DNA of 57,517 nt from Oscillibacter sp. (lineage in GTDB: Bacteria; Bacillota; Clostridia; Oscillospirales; Oscillospiraceae). Numbering within the stretch: position 1 is the stretch's first letter; the number at the start of each line of letters is the position of its first letter. Both the position numbers and the translations under genes were made by a program. The notes under the pieces were generated by a model, which was not told where the DNA came from, searched no databases, and was given only the letters and a program-made list of their open reading frames with translations. Positions 5,395 through 24,494 of the stretch are shown here, in pieces. The stretch spans positions 1-57,517 of the forward strand of contig JAAWGR010000010.1 in NCBI GenBank assembly GCA_022795445.1, given 5' to 3'.

Positions 5395-6117
5395 TTAAAG
5401 CACTTTCTCCAGGAAGGCTTTCAGACGGTCGCTGCGGGGATTGGAGAAAAATTCCGCCGGTTCGTTCTGCTCCAGGATGTGGCCGCCATCCATAAACAGC
5501 ACGCGGCTCCCCACCTCCCGGGCAAACCCCATCTCATGGGTGACCACCACCATGGTCATGCCCTCCAAGGCCAGTTCCTTCATCACGTCCAGCACCTCGC
5601 CCACCATTTCTGGGTCCAGGGCGGAGGTCGGCTCGTCAAACAGCATGACTTTCGGCTTCATTGCCAAGGCGCGGACAATGGCGATCCGCTGCTTCTGCCC
5701 GCCGGAGAGCTGGTTTGGATAGGCGTCCGCCTTGTCCACCAGCCCCACGCGCCGCAGCAGGTCTGTGGCCGCGTCATCCGCTTCCGCCGGACTCATGCGC
5801 CTCGTCCGCACTGGGGCCAGGGTGATGTTTTTCCGGATCGTCATGTTTGGGAACAGATTAAAGTGCTGGAAAACCATGCCCATTTGCTGGCGCACCTCGT
5901 CGATCTTCACTTTTGGATCTGTGATCTCTGTACCTTCAAAGGTGATTTTGCCGGAGGTAGGCGTTTCCAGCAGGTTCAGGCACCGCAGAAAGGTCGACTT
6001 CCCGGACCCGGAGGGCCCGATCACGACCACCTTCTCGCCGGGGTTGATGTGTTCGGTGATACCGTCCAACACCAAGTGGTCGCCGAAGGATTTGGAGAGT
6101 TTTTCAACGTCGATCAC
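5395..6117 (-). CDS. Polar amino acid ABC transporter ATPase (GlnQ type)
   Basis: This 240-residue cytoplasmic ATPase energises amino acid uptake. It shows Walker [10 protein letters not shown] (34-42), the Q-loop at about 84, the signature LSGGQKQR (137-144), Walker B VMLFDEP (157-163) and the switch His in VVTHEMGF (H194). The length and the [15 protein letters not shown] segment are typical of the GlnQ/ArtP/HisP group. Its start overlaps the end of the permease gene by 14 bases, which implies translational coupling. Substrate (glutamine, glutamate, cystine, arginine or another) cannot be decided from this subunit. Confidence 0.93.
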
Positions 6118-6868
6118 TTTCGCGCAGCCTCCTTTCCAGCTTGCCTTGGAGCCAGCTGAACACCAGCACCATGATCAAATACATGGCCGCCGTGATCAAA
6201 TACGGGAACATTGGCTCATAGGTTCGGGTAATAATAGCGCGGGCAAAATAAATAATTTCTTTACCCGCAATGACGGAAATGAGGGAGGTGTCCTTTAGCA
6301 GCACAATAAACTCGTTGCCCAAAGAGGGCAGAATGGCTTTAAACGCCTGGGGAATTACAATAAAGCGCATGGTGTCAAAGTAGGTCAGCCCCAAAGAACG
6401 CCCCGCCTCGGATTGGCCTGGGTCCAGGGACATCAATCCGCCGCGGATGATTTCCGACACATATGCGCCGGAGTTGATCCCCAGCGCAAGCGCGCCGACC
6501 ATTGTAAAATTGCGGCTGCTTTTGAAAATAACAAAGCCCATAATCATCAGCTGCACCATCATGGGCGTGCCGCGGATAATGGTTACATAAATTTTGCAGA
6601 TAAAATCCACAATGCCCAAAACCGGATTCCATGTCCCAGGACGGCGCTGGTCATGGGCAGTGCGGATGACCGCGACCAATACGCCCAGGACGACGCCGAT
6701 GCATAGGGCAATGACTGTTACTTGCAGGGTGGTTCCCAAACCTTGAAAATAAGTAAGCCACCGGTCGTCCTGAAACCACGCCAGATAGAATTTTCCGTAA
6801 GCATCCTGCCATACATTCCGGGCCGCAATTTCCGGCAGGCCCTCATACAGCCGGGTCCAAAAATCCAT
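6104..6868 (-). CDS. Polar amino acid ABC transporter permease
   Basis: This 254-residue membrane protein is of the HisM/GlnP family. An amphipathic N-terminal segment of about 40 residues precedes the first membrane helix ([20 protein letters not shown] region), and about five helices follow in all. The ATPase-contacting EAA loop reads [20 protein letters not shown]. The extra N-terminal part ([19 protein letters not shown]) is common in Clostridia versions. It lies between the binding-protein gene (75 bases upstream, past a hairpin) and the ATPase gene, and would form a homodimer in the membrane. Confidence 0.92.
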
Positions 6869-6905
6869 GCGCTTCCACCTCTCTCCTGTATACTTTAACG
6901 GAAGA

Positions 6906-6929
6906 AAAGGGCGACCTGGGCCGCCCTTT
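6906..6929 (-). terminator. Intercistronic hairpin after the binding-protein gene
   Basis: AAAGGGCG (6906-6913) and CGCCCTTT (6922-6929) form an 8-bp stem followed on the reverse strand by TCTTCC. The weak T-run suggests partial termination or mRNA stabilisation, which would give more binding protein than permease. Confidence 0.6.
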
Positions 6930-6943
6930 CTGGTATCCTCTTT

Positions 6944-7852
6944 TTACTGTTCCGCAGTAATATATTTGTCAATGATCTCCTGAACGGTACCGTTTTCGAT
7001 CAGTTCCTCCAAAGCGCTGTTCAGCACCTCCAGCAGGGCGCTGTTGCCTTCGTTAACCGCGAGGCAGTAATCTTCCAGGACCCAGTTGCCTTCCAGAATG
7101 TGAATGCCGGGATTTGCTTTGACATATTCCTGTGCCGGGCCATTGTCGATAATCACAGCGTCGATTTGACCGTTGATCATAGCCTGAACCGCAAGCGCAC
7201 CATTGTCATATGCCAAAACGTGTTCTTCTCCATAGCCGCCGTTTTCCGGGGTGTCGCTGGCATAGATGTGCCCCGTGGTACCGCGCTGAACGCCGATCAT
7301 TTTACCGTCCAGGCCGTCATTGTCTTCGATGTCGGAACCGTCGGGAACGATAACTACCTGCACGCCGGTTGCATAGCTGGTTGAGAAATCCATCACCTCG
7401 TCACGGTCCTCGCGGTAGCTCAGGCCGGCAAGCACCATGTCACTGCGGCCTTCCTGCACAGCGAGAAGGGCGGAATCGAAATCTATATCTATAATTTCCA
7501 GCTCCAGGCCCAGCTTTTCCGCCAGAGCCGCGGCAATTTCCGCATCAATACCGATGATGTTGCCGCTTTCGTCAACCATTTCATACGGAGGGAACGAAGC
7601 GTTCGTAGACATGACGAGCTTGCCTTCTGTTACGGTTGTGTATGTACCGTCCGTGTTGCCGTCATCGTTGGAATCGCCGGAACCGGAGGTATCGCCTGCG
7701 GTCTGGGAATCGTCGGTACCGGAGGTATCGCCTGCGGTCTGGGAATCGTCGGTACCGGAGGTATCACCAGAGCTGCTGGAGTCATTGCCGCCGCAGGCAG
7801 CCAGGGAGAGGACCATTGCCAAGACAAGCAGGCAGGTCAAAAATTTTTTCAT
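6944..7852 (-). CDS. Polar amino acid ABC transporter substrate-binding lipoprotein
   Basis: This 302-residue surface lipoprotein has the signal MKKFLTCLLV, a lipobox ending at C20 (LSLAAC-GG), a linker rich in Ser/Gly/Asp/Thr, and a type 2 periplasmic-binding fold (about 65-302: FPPYEMVDESGNIIGIDAEI, then MDFSTSYATG). It captures the amino acid for the permease and ATPase encoded downstream. The start was placed at the Met before the signal peptide, after a GGAAG ribosome site. An in-frame extension reaching 8092 crosses the promoter and is not coding. The linker holds a 36-bp tandem duplication. Confidence 0.93.
   Translation of the reverse strand: MKKFLTCLLVLAMVLSLAACGGNDSSSSGDTSGTDDSQTAGDTSGTDDSQTAGDTSGSGDSNDDGNTDGTYTTVTEGKLVMSTNASFPPYEMVDESGNIIGIDAEIAAALAEKLGLELEIIDIDFDSALLAVQEGRSDMVLAGLSYREDRDEVMDFSTSYATGVQVVIVPDGSDIEDNDGLDGKMIGVQRGTTGHIYASDTPENGGYGEEHVLAYDNGALAVQAMINGQIDAVIIDNGPAQEYVKANPGIHILEGNWVLEDYCLAVNEGNSALLEVLNSALEELIENGTVQEIIDKYITAEQ
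7683..7765. repeat. 36-bp tandem repeat in the lipoprotein linker
   Basis: Two identical 36-base units (7683-7718 and 7719-7754) and an 11-base third start encode the repeated peptide DTSGTDDSQTAG. Being a multiple of three, copy-number change would alter linker length without shifting the frame. Confidence 0.85.
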
Positions 7853-7888
7853 GATGTAATCTTCCTTTTCCAAACAAAATTCTCTCAA

Positions 7889-7911
7889 GGGAGGGATAAA
7901 CGATCCCTCCC
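7889..7911 (-). promoter_or_regulatory. Leader hairpin before the binding-protein gene
   Basis: GGGAGGGAT (7889-7897) and ATCCCTCCC (7903-7911) form a perfect 9-bp stem with a 5-base loop. It lies between promoter and start codon and is followed in the transcript by a U-rich but broken tract. It may attenuate transcription or protect the mRNA 5' end. Confidence 0.5.
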
Positions 7912-7925
7912 TCTCAGATGGAGAT

Positions 7926-7954
7926 ACCTTATCACGCCCCTGTGGCATTGTCAA
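7926..7954 (-). promoter_or_regulatory. Promoter of the amino acid ABC operon
   Basis: On the reverse strand, TTGACA (7949-7954) and TAAGGT (7926-7931) are separated by 17 bases. Confidence 0.7.
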
Positions 7955-7968
7955 GAGGATATTTAAGA

Positions 7969-7982
7969 ATTTATGCATAAAT
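7969..7982. promoter_or_regulatory. 14-bp perfect palindrome upstream of the ABC promoter
   Basis: ATTTATGCATAAAT is its own reverse complement and lies 14 bases upstream of the -35 box. AT-rich direct repeats (ATATTCATCT twice on the reverse strand, near 8071-8092) lie further upstream. The position suits an activator or an amino-acid-responsive regulator such as ArgR, but the sequence does not match a full ARG box. Confidence 0.4.
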
Positions 7983-8092
7983 ATTTGTGCTCTTTTCCAT
8001 AGGCAGAAAATCTTGCGACGATTTCCAAGCATTTCAGGGGTTAAAATTGTGTATTTTAACAACACAAGATGAATATTTAGATGAATATGCAA

Positions 8093-8451
8093 GGATCCGC
8101 GAAAGGCAGACTGATTGGCATTGGTTTAATGGGAGTTCGATGTAAAATTCTATATGAGATGTGATGTATTAAGTGCGGTGTCACCACCAAACGCATATGA
8201 CTGGCGGTTCATATATGCGGCAAGAATGGCTTAGGCTGAAGGGCAATGATTGACCAGCAGGAGGGAACCAAAGCAGAGGTATCCGGGAAGGATCTGGGCA
8301 CTCTGTTCTCCCTGCCAGCTCTACGAGGGGCGGTCCGCCGCCAACAAGTGAGTCTTGGCATATACCAAGACATTGCTTGCCGCTATGTGTTATCCAGTAC
8401 AATCCAATAAAAAAATATCGCCAGTAACACCTGAAATGCGCAAAGATTTAT
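8093..8451. other. Intergenic stretch without a recognised gene
   Basis: This gap separates the amino acid importer from the defence-type island. It holds one short open frame (8246-8410, 54 codons, MIDQQEGTKAEVSGKDLGTL start) with no good ribosome site and no family I recognise. It may be debris at the island's left edge. Confidence 0.4.
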
Positions 8452-8480
8452 TTGTAGTTTATAAGGGCATATGATACAAT
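8452..8480 (+). promoter_or_regulatory. Promoter of the helicase-methylase-ATPase island
   Basis: TTGTAG (8452-8457) and TACAAT (8475-8480) are spaced by 17 bases, with transcription predicted from about 8487, 33 bases before the helicase ATG. Confidence 0.65.
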
Positions 8481-8519
8481 GACTGTGTTTTAGAAATATA
8501 TAAGGCGGAGCGTGCAGTC

Positions 8520-11500
8520 ATGGCTTTACTTGAGTCGGTAACAATTGGAGCGTATGTATTTGGCATTGTCAGCAACATTTCTGTTTGTATTATTTCTGTA
8601 ATGTGGCATGGAACAAATGCCTTAACGGTCACTTATCGGGATGCAAACGGTAATGTAGGAGAGCAAATCCTGTACCGTGAGGATGAAGCGAATTTGTCAA
8701 TTGCTGACGGAGGTCTCCCTTGGAGCTTCGATGCGGATGCCAATTTGCTGCGTCTGACTTCCGAAGCATATCGAATCAATCTTGCCCATATTTTTGACCC
8801 GTACCTTGCAGTCCATACCTCGGCAGTTGAACCTTTGCCGCACCAGATTTCTGCCGTGTACCAAGAAATGCTGCCGCGTCTGCCGCTTCGTTACATTTTA
8901 GCGGATGACCCTGGCGCAGGTAAAACCATCATGACGGGCCTGTTCATCAAGGAACTCATGATTCGTGGTGCGCTGAAGCGGTGCTTGGTTGTGTCGCCAG
9001 GAAATCTGGCAGAGCAGTGGCAGGATGAGCTTTACCGAAAATTTGGTTTGCGATTTGAAATACTGACCAATGACCGTTTTGAGTCAGCTGTTTCCGGCAA
9101 CGTGTTCTTGGAGAGCAATCTGTGCATTGTGCGTTTGGACAAACTGGCCCGTAATGAGGACATACAGGCAAAGCTGAAAATTACATCATGGGATTTAATT
9201 GTCTGCGATGAGGCGCTTAAAATGTCCGCTACCGTATGGGGCGGTGAAGTGAAATACACGAAGCGGTTTCAAGCTGGGCGGCTGTTATCATCCGTTACAA
9301 ACCATTTCCTGCTTTTGACTGCCACTCCTCACAACGGTAAAGAAGAGGACTTCCAGCTTTTCATGTCCCTCATCGACCAAGACCGGTTTGGGGGTGTGGC
9401 CCGTAGTGGGAATCAGGCAGTGGATGTCACAGATGTAATGCGCCGTCTGATAAAGGAGGACCTGCTGAAATTTGATGGAACTCCGCTGTTCCCGGAGCGG
9501 AGAGCGTATACCGTTAACTATGATCTTTCCAACCGGGAAGCTGCGCTTTACAATGCAGCAACCAACTATGTCCAAGAAGAGTTCAACCGGGCCGATAACT
9601 TGGAAAAAGACCGCAGAAACACGGTGGGCTTTGCTTTGACCATCTTGCAGCGGCGGTTGGCATCCTCGCCCGAGGCAATTTATCAATCACTCAAACGGCG
9701 CAGAGAGAGACTGGAAGATCGGCTTGCTGAAGAACGGCTCGGCCGCCGGGGGGCGGAGTATTCTTCTATATACTACGATGATTTTGACGATGACGATCTT
9801 CCTTCGGCTGAATGGGAGGACGAGGAGGAGAAGGTTGTTGACCAAGCCACCGCTGCACGGACGATTTCCGAGTTGGAAGCCGAAATCGCCACGCTAAAGA
9901 AACTGGAGCGGATGGCCAACGATGTGCGTCAAAGCGGCGAAGATCGCAAGTGGAGCGAGCTGTCTAAACTGCTCCAAGATAATGATAGTATGTTTGGGGC
10001 TGAAGGTGAGCGAGAAAAGCTGATTATCTTTACGGAACACAGAGATACGCTCCGCTATCTCCAGAGCAAAATCCGTTCCCTGCTGGGCAGCGGGGACGCG
10101 GTGGTCACCATCCACGGCGGGCTGCTCCGGGACGAACGGCGCAAGGTGGAAGAACGGTTCAAACAGGACAAGGAAATCCGTGTCCTCATTGCCACCGATG
10201 CCGCAGGAGAAGGCATCAACCTACAACGGGCGCATCTAATGGTCAACTATGATCTGCCGTGGAATCCTAACCGTCTGGAGCAACGATTTGGACGGATTCA
10301 TCGTATCGGCCAGACCGAGGTCTGCCATCTGTGGAATCTGGTGTCCAAGGAAACCCGTGAAGGTATGGTGTATGGCCGTTTGCTGGAGAAGCTGGAGCAG
10401 GAGCGAGAGGCTCTGGGGGGAAAGGTCTTTGATGTGCTTGGCAAGTTATCCTTTAACAATAAATCACTGCGAGAACTGCTAATTGAAGCTGTTCGCTACA
10501 ACAACCGGGAAGATGTGCGGCGGCGGCTCTTTGAAGTAGTGGATCATTCCCTGGGCCGGGACGCGCTGAGGCAGCTCCTGGACGAGCAGGCTCTCACACC
10601 GGACGCAATGGATATCCACCAGGTTATGACTATTCGTGAGGACATGGAGCGTATGGAGGCCCACCGGCTCCAGCCGCACTTTATCGAGTCCTTCTTCTTG
10701 GAGGCATTCCAAAGTGTGGGGGGCAGAGTGCGCCAAAGGGAAAAGGGACGTTATGAGGTCCTCTCCGTTCCGTTTGCCGTCCGCAATCGCGATATGCAAA
10801 TCGGTACAGGGACTCCTGTGCTTAACCGTTATGAACGTATCTGCTTTGACAAAGCTTTTTGCAATGTGCCGGGTAAGCCTCAAGCCGACCTGATTGCTCC
10901 GGGACATCCGCTTTTGGAAGCTACGATTGACTTGGTACAGGAACGTAACATAGACGTATTGAAGCGTGGGGCAGTATTTGTAGATGACAACGATTTTGGC
11001 GCCGAGGCCAGGCTCCTGTTCTATATAGAGGATTCTGTTCAGGACGGAATCGTTCTCCCCAGTGGGAGTAAACGGGTAATTTCCAAGAACATTCACTTTG
11101 TGGAGCTAAAAGAGAGTGGCGCTGCTGCCAATGCGGGATATGCGCCCTACTTGGACTATCGCGCAGCTACAGAGGAGGAACAGCCAGTGATCCGTTCCTT
11201 TCTGAAGAGTCAAAGATGGCTCACAGAAAATGTGGAGAACATTGCCACCAGCTACGCCATTTCTGAAATTGTCCCAGCCCATGTGTCTGAGGTGCGCCAG
11301 CGCACAGTGAAACGGGTAGACAAAACTGCAAAGGCTGTCAAAGACCGTTTGACCGCCGAAATTCAATATTGGGATTTCCGGGCTGGCGAGTTGAAAACGA
11401 AGGAAGCGGCTGGCAAGGTCAACGCTAAGCTGAACTCGGATATGGCTACCCGCCGTGCAGACGACCTGCAAGCGCGGATGCAAAAACGATTGGCAGAACT

Positions 11501-12029
11501 TGAGCAGGAGAAGCACATCTCCGCTCTGCCGCCAGTGATTGTAGGGGGTGCAGTGGTTATCCCGCAAGGCTTGTTGGATAGACTCATGGGCCGTCCAGCT
11601 ACTTTCTGTACAGACGCTGCGGCGCGGCGCAGGATTGAACTTGCCGCCATGAAAGCGGTGATGGATATTGAACGGTCCCTCGGCTTTGCCCCTGTTGACG
11701 TGAGCGCACAGAACAAGGGGTATGACATAGAGTCCAAAATCCCCGCTGAGCTGCGGGATGCGGACGGGACCATGCTCCGTTTCATTGAGGTCAAGGGTAG
11801 AGCCAAGGACGCGATTTGTGTGACTGTCACAAGGAAGGAAATCCTAACCGCGCTGAATGAGCCAGAGCAATTCATCTTGGCAATTGTGGAGGTGGACGGC
11901 AACACCACCCACACGGTATATTTGAAGAACCCCTTTCATAAGCAACCCGACTTTGCCGCCACCAGTGTGAATTACGATATCGCTGATTTGATTGGCGGTG
12001 CTGAAATTATTCACGAAAGCAGGCTGTAA
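8520..12029 (+). CDS. SNF2-family helicase with C-terminal DUF3883 nuclease-like domain
   Basis: This 1169-residue protein resembles DrmD-type helicases of phage-defence loci. It has an N-terminal beta-rich region (1-80), Walker A ADDPGAGKT (128-136), motif II at 230-233, SAT-like LTATPHNG near 266, and an acidic insert DDFDDDDL near 420. Motif V DAAGEGINLQ lies near 560 and motif VI QRFGRIHRIGQ at about 588-598. The C-terminal DUF3883 (about 1040-1150) carries GYDIES and FIEVKGR, a D-x(n)-E-x-K pattern of PD-(D/E)xK nucleases. Motif II reads DEAL, not DEAH, so ATPase coupling may be impaired. GGCGGAG precedes the ATG. The methyltransferase gene follows after 243 bases. The role in DNA translocation or restriction is inferred from family and context. 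Confidence 0.85.
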   Translation: MALLESVTIGAYVFGIVSNISVCIISVMWHGTNALTVTYRDANGNVGEQILYREDEANLSIADGGLPWSFDADANLLRLTSEAYRINLAHIFDPYLAVHTSAVEPLPHQISAVYQEMLPRLPLRYILADDPGAGKTIMTGLFIKELMIRGALKRCLVVSPGNLAEQWQDELYRKFGLRFEILTNDRFESAVSGNVFLESNLCIVRLDKLARNEDIQAKLKITSWDLIVCDEALKMSATVWGGEVKYTKRFQAGRLLSSVTNHFLLLTATPHNGKEEDFQLFMSLIDQDRFGGVARSGNQAVDVTDVMRRLIKEDLLKFDGTPLFPERRAYTVNYDLSNREAALYNAATNYVQEEFNRADNLEKDRRNTVGFALTILQRRLASSPEAIYQSLKRRRERLEDRLAEERLGRRGAEYSSIYYDDFDDDDLPSAEWEDEEEKVVDQATAARTISELEAEIATLKKLERMANDVRQSGEDRKWSELSKLLQDNDSMFGAEGEREKLIIFTEHRDTLRYLQSKIRSLLGSGDAVVTIHGGLLRDERRKVEERFKQDKEIRVLIATDAAGEGINLQRAHLMVNYDLPWNPNRLEQRFGRIHRIGQTEVCHLWNLVSKETREGMVYGRLLEKLEQEREALGGKVFDVLGKLSFNNKSLRELLIEAVRYNNREDVRRRLFEVVDHSLGRDALRQLLDEQALTPDAMDIHQVMTIREDMERMEAHRLQPHFIESFFLEAFQSVGGRVRQREKGRYEVLSVPFAVRNRDMQIGTGTPVLNRYERICFDKAFCNVPGKPQADLIAPGHPLLEATIDLVQERNIDVLKRGAVFVDDNDFGAEARLLFYIEDSVQDGIVLPSGSKRVISKNIHFVELKESGAAANAGYAPYLDYRAATEEEQPVIRSFLKSQRWLTENVENIATSYAISEIVPAHVSEVRQRTVKRVDKTAKAVKDRLTAEIQYWDFRAGELKTKEAAGKVNAKLNSDMATRRADDLQARMQKRLAELEQEKHISALPPVIVGGAVVIPQGLLDRLMGRPATFCTDAAARRRIELAAMKAVMDIERSLGFAPVDVSAQNKGYDIESKIPAELRDADGTMLRFIEVKGRAKDAICVTVTRKEILTALNEPEQFILAIVEVDGNTTHTVYLKNPFHKQPDFAATSVNYDIADLIGGAEIIHESRL

Positions 12030-12272
12030 GTCTACTTTTATGAAAAAGCCAACTTTTGAATTTCCAAGCAGTTCCAATACATTGTATGATGGTTATGCTT
12101 GTTATTTGTTGAGATACGCCTATAGTAAGCCTGTTATTAAATATTTTGAATATTGATGTAGCAGGTTTATGCAAGATAATATGTATGGCCGCTACGAATT
12201 TTTATAATTGCGCATCGGATAAAACCCTGTTTAAGGATTTTCTACTTGCTAATGTAGAAGAAGGAGCAGAAA

Positions 12273-14984
12273 ATGGGAGCGAAAAAACTGATCGAGGTGG
12301 CCCTCCCCTTAGAGGCCGTCAATAAGGAGGCGGCCCGTGAAAAATCCATCCGCCACGGCCATCCTTCCACATTGCACCTGTGGTGGGCGCGGCGTCCGCT
12401 GGCGGCGGCGCGGGCGGTGATCTGGTCCAGCTTGGTGGACGATCCGTCCAGCCATCCGGAGGAGTTCCCCACAGAGGAGGAGCAGAACATCGAGCGGCAG
12501 CGCTTGTTTCGCATCCTGGAAAAGCTGGTGGTGTGGGAGAACTCTAACAACCTGGACGTGCTGGACGCGGCAAAGGCCGAGATCCTGAAGTCCACCGGCG
12601 GCAGCCCACCCGCTCTGCTGGACCCCTTCGCTGGAGGTGGGGCCATCCCGCTGGAGGCACAGCGGTTAGGTCTCGAGGCCCATGCTCATGACCTGAACCC
12701 GGTAGCGGTGATGATTAACAAGGCCATGATCGAGATACCGCCCAAGTTTGCTGGCCAACCGCCGGTCCATCCAGGCGCGACGGAGCTGGAGGGCGGCTGG
12801 CGCGGTGCGGCGGGGCTGGCGGAGGACGTGCGCTACTACGGCGAGTGGATGAAGCAGGAGGCATTCCAGCGCATCGGGCATCTGTACCCAAAGGTGAAGG
12901 ACGAGCAGGGGGAAGAGCATACCGTGATTGCTTGGATTTGGGCGCGGACGGTAAAGTGTCCGAATCCGGTTTGTGGGTGCGAAATGCCTATGGTGAGTTC
13001 CTTTGTACTTTCCAAGAAAAAGGGAAATGAAGCCTGGGTTGAACCAATTGTTGAAGGGCAAAAAGTGCGCTTTGAAGTGCATGAAGGCAAATGTCCCAAG
13101 GAAAAAGAAAGCAATAAAATAAGCCGAAGCGCTGTATTCAAATGCCCTTCCTGCGGAGAAACAACTCTGGATTCTTATGTGAAGGAAAACGGCAAAAACG
13201 CCGCTATTGGTACGCAGCTTATGGCAGTTGTTGCGGAGAGAAAACGGGGACGGCTATACCTCACGCCAACAACTGAGCAAGAAGTAATTGCAAAAGTCGC
13301 AGTGCCTGAAAATTGCCCATCTGGTGAGCTGCCTGACAACCCGCGCTGGTTTAGTCCTCCCGCTTTTGGTATGACAAATTATGCGGATTTGTTCACCAGC
13401 CGCCAGCTGACCGCCCTCACCACTTTCAGCGAGTTAGTGTCTGAAGCCCAGGCAAAAGTAATTGCAGACGGCGGTTCGGAGGAATATGGGCAGGCTGTGG
13501 GCGTGTATCTGGCGTTTGTGGTAGATAAATTAACGGACTATCATTCTTCTATCTGTTCATGGCATTCATCGAAGGAGCTTATTAGAAACACTTTTGGCCG
13601 TCAAGCTATCCCTATGGTATGGGATTATGCAGAAGGAAATCCGTTTAGTTCTTCTGCGGGATGTTTTGGCAGTATGCTTGACTGGGTTTTCAAGTGCATT
13701 TTCTCATTACCCGCACTACAGCAAGGAAATGCAAGTCAGTTTGACGCACAAAGCGACTGCGGTCTGCGGGATATTATGGTATCTACGGATCCGCCTTATT
13801 ACGATAACATCGGTTATGCCGACTTGTCTGATTTTTTCTATGTCTGGATGCGGCAGTCTTTGCGGACAATATATCCCGACCTGTTCCGAACCATGCTTGT
13901 ACCCAAGACGGAGGAACTGGTGGCTACACCCTATCGCTTTAATGGAAGTATTGAAAAAGCAAGAGATTTTTTTGAGAATGGGATGCTGCAAACCTGCAAA
14001 CAGGTTTATCAATATGCCCGGGAAGATGTGCCAGTGACGATTTACTACGCCTATAAGCAAAGTGAAACAAATGACGATCAAACATCATCTTCCGGCTGGG
14101 AAACCATGCTTTCTGCTATCATCCAAGCAGGTTTTGCTATCACTGGCACCTGGCCCATGCGTACCGAAATGGCAAACCGTTCCATTGCCAGCGGCACCAA
14201 CGCCCTTGCCTCCTCCATCGTTCTTGTCTGCCGTAAGCGCCCCTCGGACGCACCCATGTGTACCCGCCGGGACTTCATCAACGCCCTGAAACGGGAGCTG
14301 AAACCCGCCCTGCAAAAGCTCCAGGCCAGCAACATCGCCCCCGTGGACCTGGCACAGTCCGCCATCGGCCCCGGCATGGGCGTCTACTCCCACTACTCCA
14401 AGGTCCTGGAAGCGGACGGCGCCCCCATGAGCATCCGTTCAGCCCTGCAAATCATCAACCAGGAGCTGGACCTCTATTTCAACGAGCAGGACGGCGAACT
14501 GGACAAAGAAAGCCGCTTCTGTGTGGAATTATATACCCAGTGCGCATTCAACAACATCCTGTTCGGCGAGGCGGACGTGCTGGCGCGGGCGAAGAACACC
14601 AGTGTGGACAAGCTGCGGGCAGATGGCGTGCTGTATTCCGAAAAGGGCGTAGTGCATCTGCTGACCCGTGAGGAGCTGCCGAAAGAGGCGGATAAAGACA
14701 AGGGAATCTGGCTGTTGACCCAGCAACTTACCCGTGCTATGGAAACAGATGGTGTAGGTGGTGCGGCAAAAATTGTGGCCGGCATTTTTACTTCCGAGCC
14801 GGAGCGGGCCAAGGCTTTGGCCTATCGTCTGTTTACCTTGTCAGAACGTCGGGGCTGGACTGGTGAGGCGTTCGCTTACAATTCCCTCATCGCAGCGTGG
14901 TCAGAGGTTCAAAGCCGAGCGGCAGACCTGTCCGCGGCGTGGAACAACGCAGAGCAGACAACATTTTTTCACAAGGAGGATTGA
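12273..14984 (+). CDS. DUF1156 DNA methyltransferase (N6-adenine/N4-cytosine type)
   Basis: This 903-residue protein begins with the DUF1156 signature (LIEVALPLEAVNKEAAREKS, HPSTLHLWWARRPLAAARA). It carries the AdoMet motif DPFAGGGAIPLEA (about 117-129), two zinc-ribbon-like Cys clusters (CPNPVCGC near 229 and CPSCGE near 291) and the catalytic DPPYYDNIGYADL (506-518). It should modify host DNA to mark it as self. AAGGAG precedes the ATG. The ATPase gene starts 2 bases after its stop. Base composition is mosaic: the ends are very GC-rich, while about 12.96-14.1 kb is much more AT-rich, as if the specificity region had been exchanged. Target sequence is unknown. Confidence 0.88.
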   Translation: MGAKKLIEVALPLEAVNKEAAREKSIRHGHPSTLHLWWARRPLAAARAVIWSSLVDDPSSHPEEFPTEEEQNIERQRLFRILEKLVVWENSNNLDVLDAAKAEILKSTGGSPPALLDPFAGGGAIPLEAQRLGLEAHAHDLNPVAVMINKAMIEIPPKFAGQPPVHPGATELEGGWRGAAGLAEDVRYYGEWMKQEAFQRIGHLYPKVKDEQGEEHTVIAWIWARTVKCPNPVCGCEMPMVSSFVLSKKKGNEAWVEPIVEGQKVRFEVHEGKCPKEKESNKISRSAVFKCPSCGETTLDSYVKENGKNAAIGTQLMAVVAERKRGRLYLTPTTEQEVIAKVAVPENCPSGELPDNPRWFSPPAFGMTNYADLFTSRQLTALTTFSELVSEAQAKVIADGGSEEYGQAVGVYLAFVVDKLTDYHSSICSWHSSKELIRNTFGRQAIPMVWDYAEGNPFSSSAGCFGSMLDWVFKCIFSLPALQQGNASQFDAQSDCGLRDIMVSTDPPYYDNIGYADLSDFFYVWMRQSLRTIYPDLFRTMLVPKTEELVATPYRFNGSIEKARDFFENGMLQTCKQVYQYAREDVPVTIYYAYKQSETNDDQTSSSGWETMLSAIIQAGFAITGTWPMRTEMANRSIASGTNALASSIVLVCRKRPSDAPMCTRRDFINALKRELKPALQKLQASNIAPVDLAQSAIGPGMGVYSHYSKVLEADGAPMSIRSALQIINQELDLYFNEQDGELDKESRFCVELYTQCAFNNILFGEADVLARAKNTSVDKLRADGVLYSEKGVVHLLTREELPKEADKDKGIWLLTQQLTRAMETDGVGGAAKIVAGIFTSEPERAKALAYRLFTLSERRGWTGEAFAYNSLIAAWSEVQSRAADLSAAWNNAEQTTFFHKED

Positions 14985-14986
14985 CA

Positions 14987-17900
14987 ATGGATGGCAACGC
15001 TTTGAAGGTACAGCGAGGATTTCATATTTTGCACCCATTTTTGGCTGGCTATGTGGCACAGGAACTCCGGCAGGAATACCGGGACAACTGGTGGCAGGAG
15101 GCGCTGAGAACCTTGAGCGACCAGGTTCGTGATCTTCCGGATGACGGCGCTTATGGAGTGCTGGTGGATTCCCTGGATATTGCCAACTGCCTGCGGCTGT
15201 TCGACCGCAAGTGGAATGACCTTTTTCGCAAAAAGCTGTCTTTGGATTACCGCACCTGGGCTAAGGAACTGATGGGCGTCCGCAACAAGCTAGCCCATTT
15301 GGGCGGGCAGGATTTTAACGACGATGATACCTGGCGCGCACTGGATACCATGTCCCGGCTGTGTGAGGCGTTTGATGCGGAGGCCACCGAGGAGATTCGC
15401 AAACTGCTGCGGGAGGCGCGGTATGGTTCGGCAGACGGTTCCACCACGGTGACGGAGGCTCCAGCTGCACCTGCTGCCCCGGCAAAGAAAAAAGCGGGTA
15501 TTTTGCATTCTGCGCCGATTAGGGGACTCCCTTGTTGGCGGGACGTGATCCAGCCGCACCCGGACGTAGCTCAGGGACATTACAAAAATGCGGAGTTCGC
15601 CGCTGACATTGCCCAAGTTGCAAGGGGCGAGGGAGCCTATGAATACCGGGACCCGGTGGAGTTTTTTGCCCGCACCTATGTGACTGAGGGTATGACGGGC
15701 CTTTTGGAACAGGCCCTGCGCCGTGTGTCCGGCAAGGACGGAGAGCCGGTCATCCAGTTAAAAACAGCATTTGGCGGTGGCAAAACCCACAGTATGCTGG
15801 CGCTTTACCATATGCTGCGGGCAAGAGTTTCCATTGATAAGATTCCGAACATCAAGCCGGTTCTACAGCGGGCAGGCGTGTCTGCTCTCTCCAAAACCAA
15901 TGTCGCTGTGCTGGTCGGCACAGCCCTGGACCCCACCAAAACCAAACGGCCTCAGAATTTCCCAGGTATTAGTATCAATACGCTGTGGGGTGAGATGGCA
16001 GCGCAGCTTGCAGAGTCTGCGGGGGATCCCAAACTCTATGACTATGTGAAAGAAGCGGACAAGAAGGGGGTTTCTCCCGGCTCTGAGGCACTAAAGAACC
16101 TGTTTGACGCCTGTGGCCCATGTTTGGTGCTGATGGACGAGCTAGTAGCCTATGCCAAAAAACTGTACGGCGCACACGGCCTGCCCGCCGGAACTTTTGA
16201 TAATTTCATCTCGTTCATCCAAGAAGTGACCGAAGCGGCAAGGGCCAGTCAAAACAGCCTTGTAGTGGCCTCTATCCCGGAATCCGATATCGAGATTGGC
16301 GGTGATGCAGGAAAAATCGCATTGGAAGCCGTCGAGCATACCTTTGGGCGTATGGAGTCTATCTGGAAGCCTGTGGCGGCGAACGAAGGGTTTGAGGTGG
16401 TGCGCAGGAGGCTTTTCCTTGACTGCAAGGACCCAGATGCCCGTGATGCAGTCTGCGCCAGGTTCAGCCAAATGTATAATGAAAACCAGAGTGACTTCCC
16501 TATAGAGGCCCGCGAGGTGGAGTACCGGAAGCGTATGATTTCCTGCTATCCTATCCATCCAGAAGTCTTTGACCGTTTGTATGAGGACTGGGCAACCTTG
16601 GAGCGGTTTCAGCGGACTCGCGGTGTTCTGCGATTGATGGCGGCGGTCATTCATGAGTTGTGGATGGGCAACGATGCCGGCCTTTTAATCATGCCCAGTT
16701 CGATCCAGATGGACGTACCTACCGTACGCAATGAATTGACACGCCACTTGGACATAGAAGAAGGATGGAATGCGATTGTAGACCGGGAGGTAGATGGCAG
16801 AAACTCTGTCCCTTATCAGATAGAACGGTCCAATGGCCGTTATTCTAAAAATATGGCTGCCCGCCGGGTAAGCCGAACAATTATGCTGGGTTCCGCGCCA
16901 ACCTCTAGGATTCAAAACGTGCGTGGCATCGAAGCGTCTCGCATTCGGCTGGGTGTTGTGCAGCCAGGAGAGAATATCTCTGTGTTCAATGATGCACTGA
17001 ATACACTCACGACCTCTTTGGCATATCTTTACACCAATCCGTCCGGTGACCGCTTCTGGTATGACACACGTCCTACCCTACGAAAAACCGTGGAGGACCG
17101 CGCTACCCAAATAGCGGCCTCCGATGTGGAGTATGAGATTGAAACGCGGCTGCGCGCTGTGAGGAGGGAGCCGCCATTCGGCGGCATCCATGTTTGCCCG
17201 TCCTCCTCTCTGGATGTGCCAGATGAGCAGACTGTCCGACTTGTAATTCTCCGTCCAACAGATACATACCGGGCCTCCAACCAGAATAACTCTGCGATGA
17301 CTGCGGTGATTGACATTCTGAATAATCGAGGTACCACCCCTCGAATCTACCGAAATATGGTCGCCTTTGTTGCTCCGGAGCAGGACTTGATGCTTTCGCT
17401 CCAGCAGACAGTCCGGCGTTTCCTCGCATGGAAATCCATCAAGGAAAACAGCGAAGACCTCAATTTGGACGCTGTGCAAAATCGGGAAACAGATAACAAT
17501 CTGTCTCGTTTCAATAAAACAGTGGATGACCAAATCAAAGAAGCTTACTGCTGGCTCCTGATTCCCTATATTGATAAAGCCACGGACCTCAAAACCATTA
17601 TATGGGACACCATTCGTATCAGCGGCGGCAGTGAGTCCATTATCGGTAGGGCTGCGAACAAGATGCGGCAAAACGAGCAAATCATCACAAGATGGGCGCC
17701 AGCACTGTTGAAAATGGAACTGGACAATATCCTGTGGGTTTCCTCCGATCATATCCAAATCAAAATGTTGTGGGACTATCTCTGCACCTACTGTTACTTA
17801 CCGCGATTGGCGGCTGAGAACGTGTTGCTGGACGCCATCAGCTCTGGCCTTACATCCACTGAGTATTTTGCGTATGCTTCCGGATTTGACGGAACGCGGT

Positions 17901-18400
17901 ATCTTGAGTTGAAACTTCATCAAAACGTAGAAATGGCGGAACGGTCTGCCTACTTAGTGAAGATTCCTGTGGCGCAAAGGCAACTTAACGAGGATGAAGC
18001 AAAGCGGCAAGCTGCAGAGGCCGAAACTCAAACACAGGCGGCGCAGCAGAAGTTTGGCAATGATTTAGGAGGGAGTGTTTCTACAACGCCGCCAGATGTT
18101 GGAGAAGCAACTGCTCTACATACTGATTCTGACTTACCGACCCCTACTCCGCCGGCGGAAAATCCAAAGAACAGGCGGTTTTACATGAGTGTTCCATTAG
18201 ACGCCACTCGCATTGGACGCGATGTGCAACGGCTTGTTGAAGAAATAATAACCCACCTTACCGCAGCAGACGGGACACAAATAGAAGTTTCCTTGGAGGT
18301 CAACGCGCAAGCCCCTGATGGGCTTTCCCAGCAGATTGTCCGCACAGTATCTGAAAACTGCCGGACGCTTCACGTTAAGGATTTCGGATTTGAGGAGTAG
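14987..18400 (+). CDS. HEPN-DUF499 ATPase (anti-phage-associated)
   Basis: This 1137-residue protein starts with a Swt1-type HEPN domain (about 1-145) containing R99-N-K-L-A-H104, the Rx4H motif of HEPN ribonucleases. A Pro/Ala linker (155-168) leads to a DUF499 P-loop ATPase (about 185 onward) with Walker A FGGGKTHS (262-269) and Walker B CLVLMDEL (379-386). A long alpha-helical region and a Pro-rich segment lie near the C-terminus. The start follows AGGAGG and lies 2 bases after the methyltransferase stop; a longer frame reaching 14897 overlaps that gene. It probably powers or regulates the DNA-handling complex, with HEPN as a possible toxic effector. That division of labour is inference. 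Confidence 0.86.
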   Translation: MDGNALKVQRGFHILHPFLAGYVAQELRQEYRDNWWQEALRTLSDQVRDLPDDGAYGVLVDSLDIANCLRLFDRKWNDLFRKKLSLDYRTWAKELMGVRNKLAHLGGQDFNDDDTWRALDTMSRLCEAFDAEATEEIRKLLREARYGSADGSTTVTEAPAAPAAPAKKKAGILHSAPIRGLPCWRDVIQPHPDVAQGHYKNAEFAADIAQVARGEGAYEYRDPVEFFARTYVTEGMTGLLEQALRRVSGKDGEPVIQLKTAFGGGKTHSMLALYHMLRARVSIDKIPNIKPVLQRAGVSALSKTNVAVLVGTALDPTKTKRPQNFPGISINTLWGEMAAQLAESAGDPKLYDYVKEADKKGVSPGSEALKNLFDACGPCLVLMDELVAYAKKLYGAHGLPAGTFDNFISFIQEVTEAARASQNSLVVASIPESDIEIGGDAGKIALEAVEHTFGRMESIWKPVAANEGFEVVRRRLFLDCKDPDARDAVCARFSQMYNENQSDFPIEAREVEYRKRMISCYPIHPEVFDRLYEDWATLERFQRTRGVLRLMAAVIHELWMGNDAGLLIMPSSIQMDVPTVRNELTRHLDIEEGWNAIVDREVDGRNSVPYQIERSNGRYSKNMAARRVSRTIMLGSAPTSRIQNVRGIEASRIRLGVVQPGENISVFNDALNTLTTSLAYLYTNPSGDRFWYDTRPTLRKTVEDRATQIAASDVEYEIETRLRAVRREPPFGGIHVCPSSSLDVPDEQTVRLVILRPTDTYRASNQNNSAMTAVIDILNNRGTTPRIYRNMVAFVAPEQDLMLSLQQTVRRFLAWKSIKENSEDLNLDAVQNRETDNNLSRFNKTVDDQIKEAYCWLLIPYIDKATDLKTIIWDTIRISGGSESIIGRAANKMRQNEQIITRWAPALLKMELDNILWVSSDHIQIKMLWDYLCTYCYLPRLAAENVLLDAISSGLTSTEYFAYASGFDGTRYLELKLHQNVEMAERSAYLVKIPVAQRQLNEDEAKRQAAEAETQTQAAQQKFGNDLGGSVSTTPPDVGEATALHTDSDLPTPTPPAENPKNRRFYMSVPLDATRIGRDVQRLVEEIITHLTAADGTQIEVSLEVNAQAPDGLSQQIVRTVSENCRTLHVKDFGFEE

Positions 18401-18542
18401 GATATTTTTTCCTTGCCTGTAGATTGGCTTTTTTGATATAGCAATATACGTTTTTTCAGAACCGTAAGGTGGCCAATGAATTTGCCCGCCTCCCTTGTGT
18501 TGTTGCTCCAACCTAAGAAGGCATGAATCTTATCAAGGTAAA

Positions 18543-19162
18543 ATGAATAACCGAATTGACGCGATTTATGCAAGACAATCCATTGACAAGAAGGATAGTA
18601 TTTCTATCGAAAGTCAGATTGAGTTTTGCAAATACGAATTGAGAGGCGGGAGTTGCAAGGAATATCAAGACAAGGGTTACAGCGGCAAGAATACGGACAG
18701 GTCCCAGCTTCAAATGCTGGTGGAGGACATCAAGCGTGTGCTGATTGCCAGGGTAGTCGTTTACAAACTCGACCGCAGCAGCCGTTCCATTCTGGACTTC
18801 GCAAACATGATGGTGCTATTCCAGGAGTACAACGTAGAGTTTATCTCGTCTGCGGAGAAGTTTGACACGTCCACGACATTGCCGCCCAGCTTGCGGCGCA
18901 AGGCGTGAGATCGCACTATGGCAATCTGTTTTCCTGGTCAACGATTAGCTTAATCCTCCGCAATCCAATTTACGCAATGGCTGACCTGGACATTTACGAG
19001 TTTTTCAAAAGCCAGGGAACAGAGATTTATAACGATGCCGCCAACTTTGTGGGGACCAACGGCTGCTACTATTATCGCAGTAAGGGAAGTACGAAAGCAA
19101 GCACAAGTATCTGCAAAGAAAGCATGCGGCTATTACGTTCTCTGCACTTGACTGTCATTTAA
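18543..19162 (+). pseudogene. Large serine recombinase, internally deleted and frameshifted
   Basis: The first part (18543-about 18875) encodes a serine-recombinase catalytic domain with the nucleophile in AIYARQS, then KGYSGKNTDR and YKLDRSSRS up to SSAEKFDTST. The reading then shifts, and from about 18873 to 19162 another frame encodes a later region (VHDIAAQLAAQGVRSHYGN, then STISLILRNPIYAMADLDIY). The stretch that normally joins these, roughly 80-90 residues, is missing, and the zinc-ribbon and coiled-coil C-terminus is absent. It cannot encode an active integrase. Its place directly after the defence genes suggests that these arrived on an integrative element that is now fixed. Confidence 0.8.
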
Positions 19163-19229
19163 GGCTCTTTGAAAAAGTGGTGAAGCAAGGACTGGTATAG
19201 CGCCTAAAGCTCTCGACTTTGCAAGGCTT

Positions 19230-19650
19230 TTATAAATTCTCGAGATACTCCCGCAGCAGACAAATAAAATCTTTGTCATAACTTACGAGTTCCTTTCCAA
19301 CCTCCATAAATTTCCGCTGGTCCGGTTCTTTGCATTGTCCGCGCTGTGCGCAGACGGTTACAGTTCCAATACAGCATGGATCAGCGGCGCCCATTCCCCC
19401 ACATTCCCCAGCAGGCGTTCCGCCAACTTGGCGGAAGACTGGGTCAACACGGGAATCTCAACCCACGTGTTGGGAGAATGTTCCAAGAGCGCGCCAGCAG
19501 CGGCACGGAGCACAGTCATAGCGTTCGCGGCGCTGCATACAAGCTCACTAGTTCCAAGCAGATATCATTCTCTGGGTCCAAACGGGCGCAGGCAGCCCCC
19601 CGCGCCTCGCCCTCTTCTACGACGGCAAGCCCAAAGGTATAAAATCCGCG
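19230..19650 (-). pseudogene. Decayed gene of unknown family
   Basis: Three successive reverse-strand frames read like one protein with two interruptions. They are FYTFGLAVVEEGEARGAACA... (about 19520-19650), MTVLRAAAGALLEHSPNTWV... (19358-19519), and QCKEPDQRKFMEVGKELVSY... ending at 19230. The first junction is a one-base shift at about 19525, and a stop plus a shift separates the last part. I do not recognise the family. It sits between the recombinase remnant and the hairpin array, so it is probably a piece of the same mobile element. Confidence 0.4.
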
Positions 19651-19701
19651 CTATGTCTTAAAAGAGGCAATTCACATGAAATGCACAAACGGCAAGCAAT
19701 T

Positions 19702-19889
19702 CGGGTGTGTCCACACTCCGAAATTTTTGCTGGGCCGATGGCCCGCAAAAATGCTTGTTGGGGAGCCTCCCCAAACCCCGACTCTTTGGGACAAAATGTC
19801 TCAAAGTCACTACCCGATATTTATACTATGCGGATGGAGTGACCAGGGTCTGCTGGGGGCCGCCTTGATAACTAAAACAGGGCGGCCCC
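19702..19889. repeat. Array of five hairpins, candidate origin of transfer
   Basis: Within 190 bases there are five inverted repeats. They are GGTGTG-TC-CACACT (about 19703-19717), ATTTTTGC..GGGCC-GAT-GGCCC..GCAAAAAT (19723-19752), TTGGGGA-GCC-TCCCCAA (19758-19774), an imperfect GACTCTTTG/CAAAGTC arm pair (19780-19808), and GGGGCCGCC/GGCGGCCCC (19856-19889). Closely packed repeats of this kind are typical of oriT regions of mobilisable elements in Firmicutes. No relaxase gene remains nearby. A structured RNA is the alternative. The rest of the 19.65-20.29 kb gap holds no gene. Confidence 0.45.
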
Positions 19890-20137
19890 AGTGGACTCCG
19901 GCCATGTCACGCAAAAAACCGCCCCATTTTCACGGATGGCTTTCTGCGTAATGTGATAGATTCAATCTTTTTTCTTTTATTTTCTCCAAAATTCTTTCGT
20001 TTTCGTATTCCTAATAAGAGTTAATTATATGGTTTGTAAATGGGTTTTGGGACTCATGAAGCCATTTTAAAGAAATATTAAAAAGAGATTTCCGCAGCAA
20101 GGGCATAGGGACCCTGAGCGGTTAAGCCGCAGGTTTC

Positions 20138-20167
20138 TTGACAAACAAGTGGGGCACTGGTTATAAT
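20138..20167 (+). promoter_or_regulatory. Promoter of the zinc-finger hypothetical gene
   Basis: TTGACA (20138-20143) and TATAAT (20162-20167), both perfect consensus boxes, are spaced by 18 bases. The leader to the start at 20295 would be about 120 nt and shows no clear fold. Confidence 0.75.
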
Positions 20168-20294
20168 GTTGAGCAGAAAAGCGGAGCCTGCGTTTTGCAC
20201 GGCCAAAGACGCGAGCCAGGTGCGGTATTTTATCTGGCTTGATCAATGGACTATGCAAAATTGAAAAATGATTTTAGAACAAAGAAGTGGTATA

Positions 20295-20822
20295 ATGAGA
20301 CAGCAGCTTGAGAAAGCCCTTGGTGACGCTTTCCCGTTTATGCAGCGGGGGCTGTCCGAAAAGGAGCAGGTTGAGAAGTGGGGACATACTCGTAATATTT
20401 ACGACGCTTATGGGATGGAACTGGGAGATGGATGGTACCAGGTTATTTGGGATATGTGCGCGGAAATTACCGCAGTTTATGAAACGGAAGGCTTGCCGGT
20501 TGATCTTGTCGTGGACCAGGTTAAGGAGAAGTTTGGAACCCTGCGCTTTTATTACCATCCCAAGGATCAAGAGGCTGCCATCCACGCGTTTGACTGCCTG
20601 AACGAAGGGGCCAGCCTGCGGTTCCAGCCCGGTTCTTCAAATGTACATCAGAAAACTGCGGAGATTGTGGGCAAGTATGAAACATTGAGCGCCCAGGTTT
20701 GTGAAATCTGCGGAAAACCAGGATGTCTCCGTAAGGATTTGCGCCGGATACAGACGCTGTGCGAAGAACACTATCATAAAAATCTTAATCTTATCAAAAA
20801 AACGAAACAGCGGCGGCAATAG
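20295..20822 (+). CDS. Conserved hypothetical protein with C-terminal zinc-finger-like motif
   Basis: This 175-residue soluble protein contains the conserved stretches GDGWYQVIWDMCAEI and QVKEKFGTLRFYYH, and a C-terminal CEICGKPGCLR...LCEEH cluster that could bind zinc. Proteins with this QVKEKFGxLRFY plus CxxCGxPG pattern are widespread but uncharacterised. I chose the start at 20295, after AGAAGTGG; an ATG at 20268 in the same frame would add nine residues and lacks a ribosome site. It is monocistronic, under a consensus promoter, and ends at a shared terminator. No function can be assigned. Confidence 0.7.
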   Translation: MRQQLEKALGDAFPFMQRGLSEKEQVEKWGHTRNIYDAYGMELGDGWYQVIWDMCAEITAVYETEGLPVDLVVDQVKEKFGTLRFYYHPKDQEAAIHAFDCLNEGASLRFQPGSSNVHQKTAEIVGKYETLSAQVCEICGKPGCLRKDLRRIQTLCEEHYHKNLNLIKKTKQRRQ

Positions 20823-20865
20823 CCCGGAAGATTCCACAGAGCATATCAGCAGCAGATACGATTTC

Positions 20866-20905
20866 GCTCCCATTTCCCAGCCCATCCAGGCCGGAAAATG
20901 GGAGC
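20866..20905. terminator. Bidirectional terminator
   Basis: GCTCCCATTT (20866-20875) pairs with AAATGGGAGC (20896-20905) around a 20-base loop, between convergent genes ending at 20822 and 20917. Confidence 0.65.
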
Positions 20906-20916
20906 CGTTCGTTTGT

Positions 20917-21351
20917 TTAGAGGAACATGCGAATATCTGCCGCCAAATCTTCCTCAATGCTGATCAGCCGTTTTGCAAGGTCCTTGGATGTTTCATCGGC
21001 TGCCTGATATTGGTTCAAATACTTGTTCAAAGATTTGACGCCCATGTTGCACCCGTCGGTCACAAAATCCGCAATTGCCGCATCCGAGCCTTCCATAGCC
21101 AGCTTTACATTTGTCTTTACCCATGACATGCCCTTAGCGATTGGGTTTGGCTCCTTCCCGTCATCATGATAGTTGTTCAGCTGCCGTTTGATTTCACCTT
21201 CCAGCGTCTCGTGCGCGGATACTCCCTCCGCCAAGCACTGCCGCAGTTCCTCTTCGTGGATATACGTCAGAACGTCCCCAATGGATGAAATGCCCATTTT
21301 TACACCCGCATCGCATTCCCGCAATAATTTTATCGTATCCGGTTCTGCCAT
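20917..21351 (-). CDS. Predicted helical-bundle (ferritin-like) protein
   Basis: This 144-residue, almost wholly alpha-helical acidic protein starts MAEPDTIKLLRECDAGVKMG and contains AMEGSDAAIADFVTDGCNMG. The helix pattern and spacing suggest a four-helix bundle of the DUF2383/ferritin-like type, which includes proteins of stress resistance and spore coats. No complete di-iron ExxH pair is evident, so metal binding is doubtful. AGGAGG lies 10 bases before the ATG. It is monocistronic and convergent with the gene at 20295. The family assignment is tentative. Confidence 0.6.
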   Translation of the reverse strand: MAEPDTIKLLRECDAGVKMGISSIGDVLTYIHEEELRQCLAEGVSAHETLEGEIKRQLNNYHDDGKEPNPIAKGMSWVKTNVKLAMEGSDAAIADFVTDGCNMGVKSLNKYLNQYQAADETSKDLAKRLISIEEDLAADIRMFL

Positions 21352-21485
21352 AGAAAACCATCCTCCTTTTGCGTCAAAGGATAGTATGTCCCATTTTTGC
21401 GGAAGCCGGTTATTTGATACGCCGGACGATATAGCGCTTTAAACACAAAAATCTGTATGAAACCAATATAAAGGAGAAGGAAGAT

Positions 21486-22079: not shown

Positions 22080-22292
22080 ACCTGGTCAGGTGGAAGATAT
22101 ATCTATATCCAATTTTCCCCCCAGAACAATCCCGATTTGCCGAATTGATACACGCAAAGCATACTACCACTCCTGGCGGCATTCAACCCTAATTTATAGG
22201 CGCTGATAGAGGAACGTCTGACGGAACCGTTCCCCAGAGGGCGCACGATTTTTGCAATTGCCTCTTGACAGGGAGGCAGATTTGGCACAAAG

Positions 22293-22320
22293 TTAACATC
22301 GTTAGCTAACGCTGTATACT
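22293..22320 (+). promoter_or_regulatory. Promoter and operator of the decayed TetR gene
   Basis: TTAACA (22293-22298) and TATACT (22315-22320) are spaced by 16 bases. The spacer contains the perfect palindrome GTTAGCTAAC (22301-22310), whose GTTAG half-site recurs in the operator at 22693. The 22080-22292 gap upstream holds no gene I recognise. Confidence 0.6.
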
Positions 22321-22332
22321 CTTAGAGGAATT

Positions 22333-22669: not shown

Positions 22670-22692
22670 CAAGCCCTCAATCTTTTCAAAAA

Positions 22693-22710
22693 AGTTAGTT
22701 ATAACTAACT
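22693..22710. promoter_or_regulatory. 18-bp palindromic operator of the exporter remnant
   Basis: AGTTAGTTATAACTAACT is a perfect 18-bp palindrome placed 18 bases before the exporter start codon. It shares GTTAG/CTAAC half-sites with the palindrome in the TetR promoter, so both were probably bound by that regulator. Confidence 0.6.
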
Positions 22711-22728
22711 GAGGCGGAGGTGTATCCA

Positions 22729-23839: not shown

Positions 23840-23850
23840 GAGGTGTCATT

Positions 23851-24489: not shown

Positions 24490-24494
24490 GCCAG

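Follow-up and report, generated by a model that had tools for sequence, protein, structure and literature searches.

What kind of system is encoded by the three very large genes that lie on one strand, between positions 8520 and 18400, of a 57,517-nucleotide contig stretch from Oscillibacter sp. (JAAWGR010000010.1, assembly GCA_022795445.1; the whole stretch analysed is hereafter called the window)? An initial annotation had taken them for a self-contained helicase-methylase-ATPase operon of the defence type, apart from DISARM and BREX, and for a system not recognised before. Our analysis supports the former proposal and not the latter. The trio is probably a complete, already catalogued Hma operon, also called 'Type-1 BREX-related', of the kind with a fused HEPN domain, borne on a horizontally acquired cassette and working in the manner of restriction-modification (R-M) with HEPN as a backup. 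As the system is already catalogued, the locus itself mainly adds one more member. Comparison of its methylase, HmaB, with that of relatives yields, in addition, a testable view of which region selects the DNA site and which holds the complex together, in a defence system that is widespread and biochemically little known.

Identity of the operon

Open reading frames (ORFs) confirm three large genes in the same direction, and Pfam domains bear out the annotated products: an SNF2 helicase with a nuclease-like tail, a methyltransferase and a P-loop ATPase with a HEPN domain (Table 1). In a PADLOC run, the profiles for HmaA, HmaB and HmaC scored 1662, 1153 and 1057 bits, each with E=0. The architecture was printed in 2013, when Anantharaman et al. 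(PMC3710099) described, in the available part of their text, a HEPN (Abi2/Swt1)-DUF499 protein, Ava_2192, in an operon with R-M components and an SNF2 helicase fused to DUF3883. Because of these profile matches and this published architecture, the trio is not an undescribed system.

The name Hma comes from Payne et al. (2021, PMC8565338), who recorded 1,638 instances in 26 phyla, often with Septu; in the available portion of that paper the systems cloned and tested were others than Hma, and HmaB is described as a 5-methylcytosine (m5C) enzyme. The accessible sections of Rakesh and Krishnan (2026, PMC12839542) apply the name 'Type-1 BREX-related' to 2446 taxa, 1370 of them with the HEPN fusion and 1076 without it, report an active-site-bearing C-terminal PD-(D/E)xK nuclease on the helicase in 79% of these taxa, and give as features a C-terminal RNA-recognition motif (RRM) on HmaC and a Tudor domain plus an inactive nuclease in HmaA. 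The same sections propose self-marking by methylation, restriction by the helicase-nuclease and suicide by HEPN, name N6-adenine (N6A) as the methylated base and cite Liu 2024 (Halomonas) for phage defence by the helicase. In the available literature, the mechanism of Hma is still a prediction.

It is highly improbable that the trio is instead part of a DISARM or BREX system after loss of the other genes. Cross-matches would be the argument for such a remnant, HmaA matching PADLOC DrmD (419 bits, 1e-125) and BrxHI/BrxHII (327 bits, 7e-98) and HmaC weakly matching BrxC (7e-4); the Hma models, however, score far higher. HmaA also misses the NCBIfam DrmD cut-off (365 against 610 bits), the NCBIfam DUF1156_antiphage and DUF499_antiphage models likewise matching under their cut-offs. 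Neither PglZ (PF08665) nor MZB/DUF1998 (PF09369), DUF1998 being the mark of DrmB, had a match in the whole assembly (92.9% complete), while among 14 control genomes the same searches were positive in 2 and 8, respectively. Four plasmid regions that carry the trio list neither gene in the part displayed, the gene tables being incomplete. The PADLOC scores, the missed DrmD cut-off and the two negative domain searches led us to reject the remnant.

Genes, domains and selection

Table 1. Features of the operon and its surroundings, in positions of the window.
Feature	Position	Strand	Remarks
hmaA	8520..12029	+	1169 amino acids (aa); PADLOC HmaA E=0 over residues 1-1163; Pfam SNF2-rel_dom, Helicase_C, NOV_C
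A-B intergenic slot	12030..12272	.	243 bp, GC 0.33; longest ATG ORF 38 aa
hmaB	12273..14984	+	903 aa; PADLOC HmaB E=0; Pfam DUF1156
hmaC	14987..18400	+	1137 aa (most likely start); PADLOC HmaC E=0; Pfam HEPN_Swt1 and DUF499
DNA common to the window and locus L002	8443..18491	+	interrupted at 12039-12142 and 13024-13391 (window 6001-26000 compared with L002, L038 and L040)
Serine recombinase N-terminal fragment	18543..18908	+	Pfam Resolvase E=1.2e-20; PHROG integrase E=1.6e-23

The third ORF was called from GTG 14897 (14897-18400, 1167 aa). Because AAGGAGG lies directly upstream of ATG 14987 and the methylase ends at 14984, the start of hmaC is most likely this ATG, to which it has been moved. 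A gene hidden in the slot between hmaA and hmaB was ruled out by the shortness of its longest ATG ORF.

HmaA carries helicase motif I as DDPGAGKT, motif II as DEAL (residues 230-233) and motif VI as QRFGRIHRIGQ, and ends in a PD-(D/E)xK-type NOV_C/DUF3883 domain with GYD...EVK (Pfam NOV_C 1.8e-17). In HmaB, DPFAGGG at 117 and DPPYYD at 506 are accompanied by Cys pairs near 229-294, and the protein is laid out with a variable target-recognition block at about residues 251-500 and a C-terminal part at about 651-903; by the motif rule, DPPY points to an amino-methyltransferase. HmaC consists, in order, of an N-terminal Swt1-like HEPN domain with RNKLAH (Rx4H), a DUF499 AAA+ ATPase (Walker A AFGGGKTH, Walker B LVLMDE), a variable linker and a conserved C-terminal end. 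Among the sequences aligned, window included, the nuclease D and EVK are present in 35/35 HmaA, DPPY in 38/38 HmaB and Walker A in 30/30 HmaC, and RNxxxH in 29 of the 30 HmaC, the His being lost in L034. By sequence, the closest Protein Data Bank relatives of HmaA are RapA, and neither HmaB nor HmaC matched a solved structure at E 0.01.

All three reading frames are open, and comparison with the nearest relative shows purifying selection: the ratio of nonsynonymous to synonymous substitution rates (dN/dS) is 0.058 for HmaA, 0.056 for HmaC and, for HmaB, 0.077 outside residues 251-500 and 0.246 inside them.

Relatives and gene order

A scan of genome contigs with HmaB peptides yielded 49 loci, many from Clostridia and others from Desulfovibrio-like bacteria, Bacteroidota, Synergistaceae and more; the closest, L002 (Pseudoflavonifractor sp. 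524-17), is 80% identical. With the window as a fiftieth entry, the order A-B-C is found in 27, and in another 8 with more than one HmaB piece (a second copy in 7, a split HmaB in L034); 15 hold only part of the set within the stretch examined, and a different gene order occurs in 0/50. A neighbourhood survey, proposed with the initial annotation, thus finds the trio conserved elsewhere. Motif and tree sets were restricted to proteins covering at least 93% of the query (34, 37 and 29 relatives of the 49 loci for HmaA, HmaB and HmaC), which left out the HEPN-less HmaC of L028 and genes cut or split in contigs. All three proteins were available for 24 systems, window included, and 23 entered the trees after L035 was dropped; alignments A1 and A2 held 26/29 and 31/34 such relatives.

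Operon gaps longer than 300 bases were examined for inserts, and 18 of the 49 loci have an extra ORF of at least 110 codons (stop to stop), in the A-B slot in 11 and, in 7, in the B-C gap or separating two copies of B; the window has none. Ten of these ORFs, from 10 of the 18 loci, were run through PADLOC, and seven matched known or candidate defence proteins at E<1e-90 (HEC-01 twice, PtuA twice, QatA, PDC-S13 and PDC-S02), two matched weakly and one was without a match. In plasmid relatives from Gloeocapsa and Meiothermus, the genes are annotated 'helicase-related protein', 'DUF1156 domain-containing protein' and 'Swt1 family HEPN domain-containing protein', with extra genes in between in the former and none in the latter. 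An Acidovorax copy has a shorter protein annotated DUF499, without HEPN. HmaC had no match at E 1e-10 in a phage collection.

Separately, two or three DUF1156 methylases stand in tandem in L011, L015, L016, L019, L021, L022, L024, L033, L036, L046 and L081, usually as a closer copy paired with one of 36-43% identity over about residues 4-750 (less in L021, truncated where its contig ends); in L016, three near-full HmaB copies are at 61-66%. With tandem copies, a single machine could perhaps mark two sites, or the two strands of an asymmetric one.

Proposed working and the variant helicase motif

From domains and motifs, we infer methylation, restriction, RNase action and complex formation, most likely in an R-M-like defence with the HEPN RNase as a suicidal backup. 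HmaB would mark host DNA by amino-group methylation, probably of adenine N6, with the variable block determining the site. HmaC, a BrxC-like AAA+ ATPase, would build a scanning complex. Unmarked invading DNA would trigger HmaA, the helicase motor moving on DNA and the NOV_C nuclease cutting it, and the HEPN RNase on HmaC would serve as the suicidal arm of last resort.

Several points weigh against the trio being a complete Hma operon that works in this way. Its order is not universal, the helicase of a distant Thermus plasmid copy lying on the opposite strand. The action of HEPN is read from a motif that has lost its His in L034, the HmaC of L028 is without the HEPN part, and 1076 of the 2446 published taxa, as given in the accessible sections of PMC12839542, are without the fusion. 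The methylated base is disputed in print, the available texts giving m5C (PMC8565338) or N6A (PMC12839542). Lastly, motif II of HmaA is DEAL in the window and DEAH in all 34 aligned relatives. Viral contigs gave 18 loci, three of them with weak matches; the 15 that were checked all have DEAH, at identities as low as 33%. In L079, a single six-frame pattern match, DEAHK, is not placed in the gene. The DEAH common to all relatives compared is lacking here; the available text of PMC12839542 does not name it as a criterion, and its lack bears on activity, not on descent.

The variant makes the restriction strength of the present copy uncertain, and its helicase may be impaired or weakened. An alternative that we regard as unlikely, while giving it some weight, carries this further: HmaA with DEAL would bind but be unable to couple ATP hydrolysis to movement, so that restriction would be weak, methylation and at most HEPN suicide would be left, and the system would be in early decay. 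The motif is unique among the 35 aligned HmaA and against the 15 viral-contig relatives, and one sequencing error is a less likely cause, since codon 233, CTT here and CAC in the three closest relatives, differs by two bases. Against this alternative stand the three open genes, a dN/dS of 0.033 in the helicase core (residues 90-620) and the number of singleton changes in HmaA columns that are otherwise invariant, 4 in the window and more in 6/34 relatives. The other helicase and nuclease motifs of HmaA are like those of relatives. As a natural variant of motif II, this copy offers a way to ask which of methylation, restriction and HEPN action depend on the helicase motor.

Target block and C-terminal end of HmaB

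Whatever the strength of its helicase, the probable Hma operon of the window has a methylase whose parts vary in different ways. HmaA is 90.5-91.8% and HmaC 84-85% identical to the proteins of L002, L038 and L040, and HmaB residues 251-500 show 24-76% identity to the same three per 50-residue block. Over 276 pairs from 24 systems, identity in HmaA correlates with that in HmaC at r 0.88, with HmaB outside the block at 0.67 and with HmaB 251-500 at -0.01. Taken in blocks of 50 residues, HmaB gives r near 0 across 251-450 and 0.67-0.80 across 651-900; in 2000 label permutations, the values of 651-900 were never reached. Low variability alone is no explanation, because equally conserved HmaB blocks differ: mean identity is 0.78 in both 501-550 and 701-750, and r is 0.14 in the former and 0.67 in the latter. 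In trees of 23 systems, that of the target block lies at Robinson-Foulds distances of 36-40 from the other four (maximum 40 as reckoned for 23 tips), and the HmaB C-terminal tree is nearest that of HmaC (24; HmaA to HmaC, 26). Block 251-500 thus varies independently of HmaA and HmaC, and the C-terminal quarter tracks them.

One set of loci shows the pattern directly. L038 and L040, whose HmaA are 97% identical, agree at 93-100% in HmaB 1-200 and 86-100% in 651-900, but at 20-78% in 201-650. L005, whose HmaA is 77-78% identical to that of either locus (587 residues compared), resembles L038 more than L040 in HmaB 201-650, at 64-96% against 16-82%.

We lean, with some reserve, towards a two-part HmaB, in which an exchangeable portion, roughly 201-650 (target recognition plus some of the catalytic core), would set the site for the whole machine, while about 651-903 would stay with its HmaA and HmaC partners as a docking end. 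If so, a single recombination within one gene would give the whole restriction machine a new target, comparable to the part played by hsdS in Type I R-M. In the literature searched, we came across no mention of block exchange in HmaB.

This interpretation has to be set against a number of results. In approximately unbiased (AU) tests, all five partitions reject one another's trees, so that HmaA and HmaC are not fully congruent either; the rejection is narrow for HmaB C-terminal data on the HmaC tree (AU p 0.025, Shimodaira-Hasegawa p 0.40). HmaB 51-100 does correlate with HmaA (r 0.50), and 451-500 (0.25) and 551-600 (0.34) do so weakly, whereas for catalytic blocks that lie outside the target block a correlation with HmaA is mostly lacking. 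Without the outlier L035, r falls to 0.79 between HmaA and HmaC and 0.48 between HmaA and HmaB outside the block, that of the block being -0.05. The target block is more alike than the core in 0/703 pairs, so most of the signal could also be fast divergence; target blocks of such methylases diverge fast in general, according to the available sections of PMC12839542. L005, L038 and L040 are the sole clear example of exchange, HmaA and HmaC of L005 being known in part only, and the sample may be biased, the relatives having been found through HmaB peptides.

Extent and surroundings of the cassette

The DNA shared with L002 (Table 1) extends little beyond the trio; L002 has only 274 bases upstream of its matching stretch. 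L038 and L040 match the window over 8604-18399 and not outside, despite 5.8 and 6.0 kb of upstream sequence, and about 6 kb downstream likewise lacks similarity beyond the match. HmaB was found in 0/36 other genomes of the genus, not all of which are complete; of 23 additional genomes from the order, one gave a weak match of 50 residues and the rest none. Among 291 genomes of the class, two, one of them the own genome, have an HmaA-like protein at E 1e-100 or better. Extent and sporadic occurrence are as for a moving cassette.

A role mainly against plasmids or other mobile elements, or in stabilising its own cassette through post-segregational killing by HEPN, rather than in phage defence, strikes us as improbable for this cassette. 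Its sporadic occurrence would suit such a role, as would the 87 of 72,556 plasmid records that match HmaA at E 1e-50 or better (62 over 80% of the length), some of which may be other SNF2 defence helicases. The phage-defence genes inside the operons of relatives argue the other way, as does the phage-defence role of the helicase, known through a citation in the available text of PMC12839542; the two roles are, moreover, not exclusive.

The earlier description of flanking mobile-element debris is borne out in part. Downstream, the serine recombinase fragment is probably debris next to the cassette and outside the system. Upstream of hmaA there is only a short repeat-like stretch, 8154-8310, which is 74% identical to one other place in the genome and, in part, 75% to a second; it has partial matches in same-genus genomes and no Rfam match. 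The short ORF that follows the recombinase fragment (18905-19162) looks by eye like a further piece of the same recombinase and has no Pfam or PHROG match. The window contains no tRNA and no Rfam family at the gathering threshold, hence no signature of a tRNA-integrated island. The left flank is similar to the nearest genome (G021) as far as window position 7999, and the right flank lies there on other contigs or is reordered; because of this rearrangement, an exact empty site could not be defined.

PADLOC was also run on 10 of the other ORFs of the window. Near the island, a small protein (21486-22079) has a modest match to the uracil-DNA glycosylase superfamily (E 3e-6) and falls where DNA similarity to the nearest genome resumes only at about 23330. 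Farther away, a 1166-aa ORF (40380-43880) that adjoins an MMPL-family gene (37807-40383) has only GLUG-motif and weak coiled-coil-type matches, and its product is perhaps a repetitive surface or coiled-coil protein.

Comparison with known systems

DISARM class 1, with its DrmD helicase and methylase, shares a distant helicase homology with HmaA, and differs in that HmaA misses the NCBIfam DrmD cut-off and the genome has no MZB/DUF1998 gene. Type-3 BREX, in the portion of PMC12839542 available, has in common with the present locus the helicase, a BrxC-like ATPase and a methylase with an internal target block and three C-terminal helix-turn-helix (HTH)-like domains; the present locus differs in the absence of PglZ from the genome and in the DUF1156 N-terminus of its methylase. 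For the homologous Type-3 BREX methylase, Rakesh and Krishnan suggest in that portion that the C-terminal HTH-like domains help target recognition, with which our docking-end reading of the HmaB C-terminus contrasts.

Agreement is closer elsewhere. With Hma of PADLOC and Payne et al. (PMC8565338), the locus shares the same three proteins, matched by the models over nearly their whole length; the HmaC profile aligns only from residue 211 of the ORF, leaving the HEPN domain of the present copy outside it, and HmaB is an m5C enzyme in the available text of that paper, whereas the DPPY of the present HmaB fits an amino-methyltransferase. From the HEPN-DUF499 R-M class of Ava_2192, we found no architectural difference in the available part of PMC3710099. 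From the Type-1 BREX-related systems, the present copy differs by the DEAL of motif II; like them, as far as the available sections of PMC12839542 describe them, it is without PglZ and in the simplest three-gene layout, and it shares with their HEPN-fused subset the HEPN-DUF499 ATPase, the DUF1156 methylase and the SNF2 helicase with a C-terminal PD-(D/E)xK nuclease.

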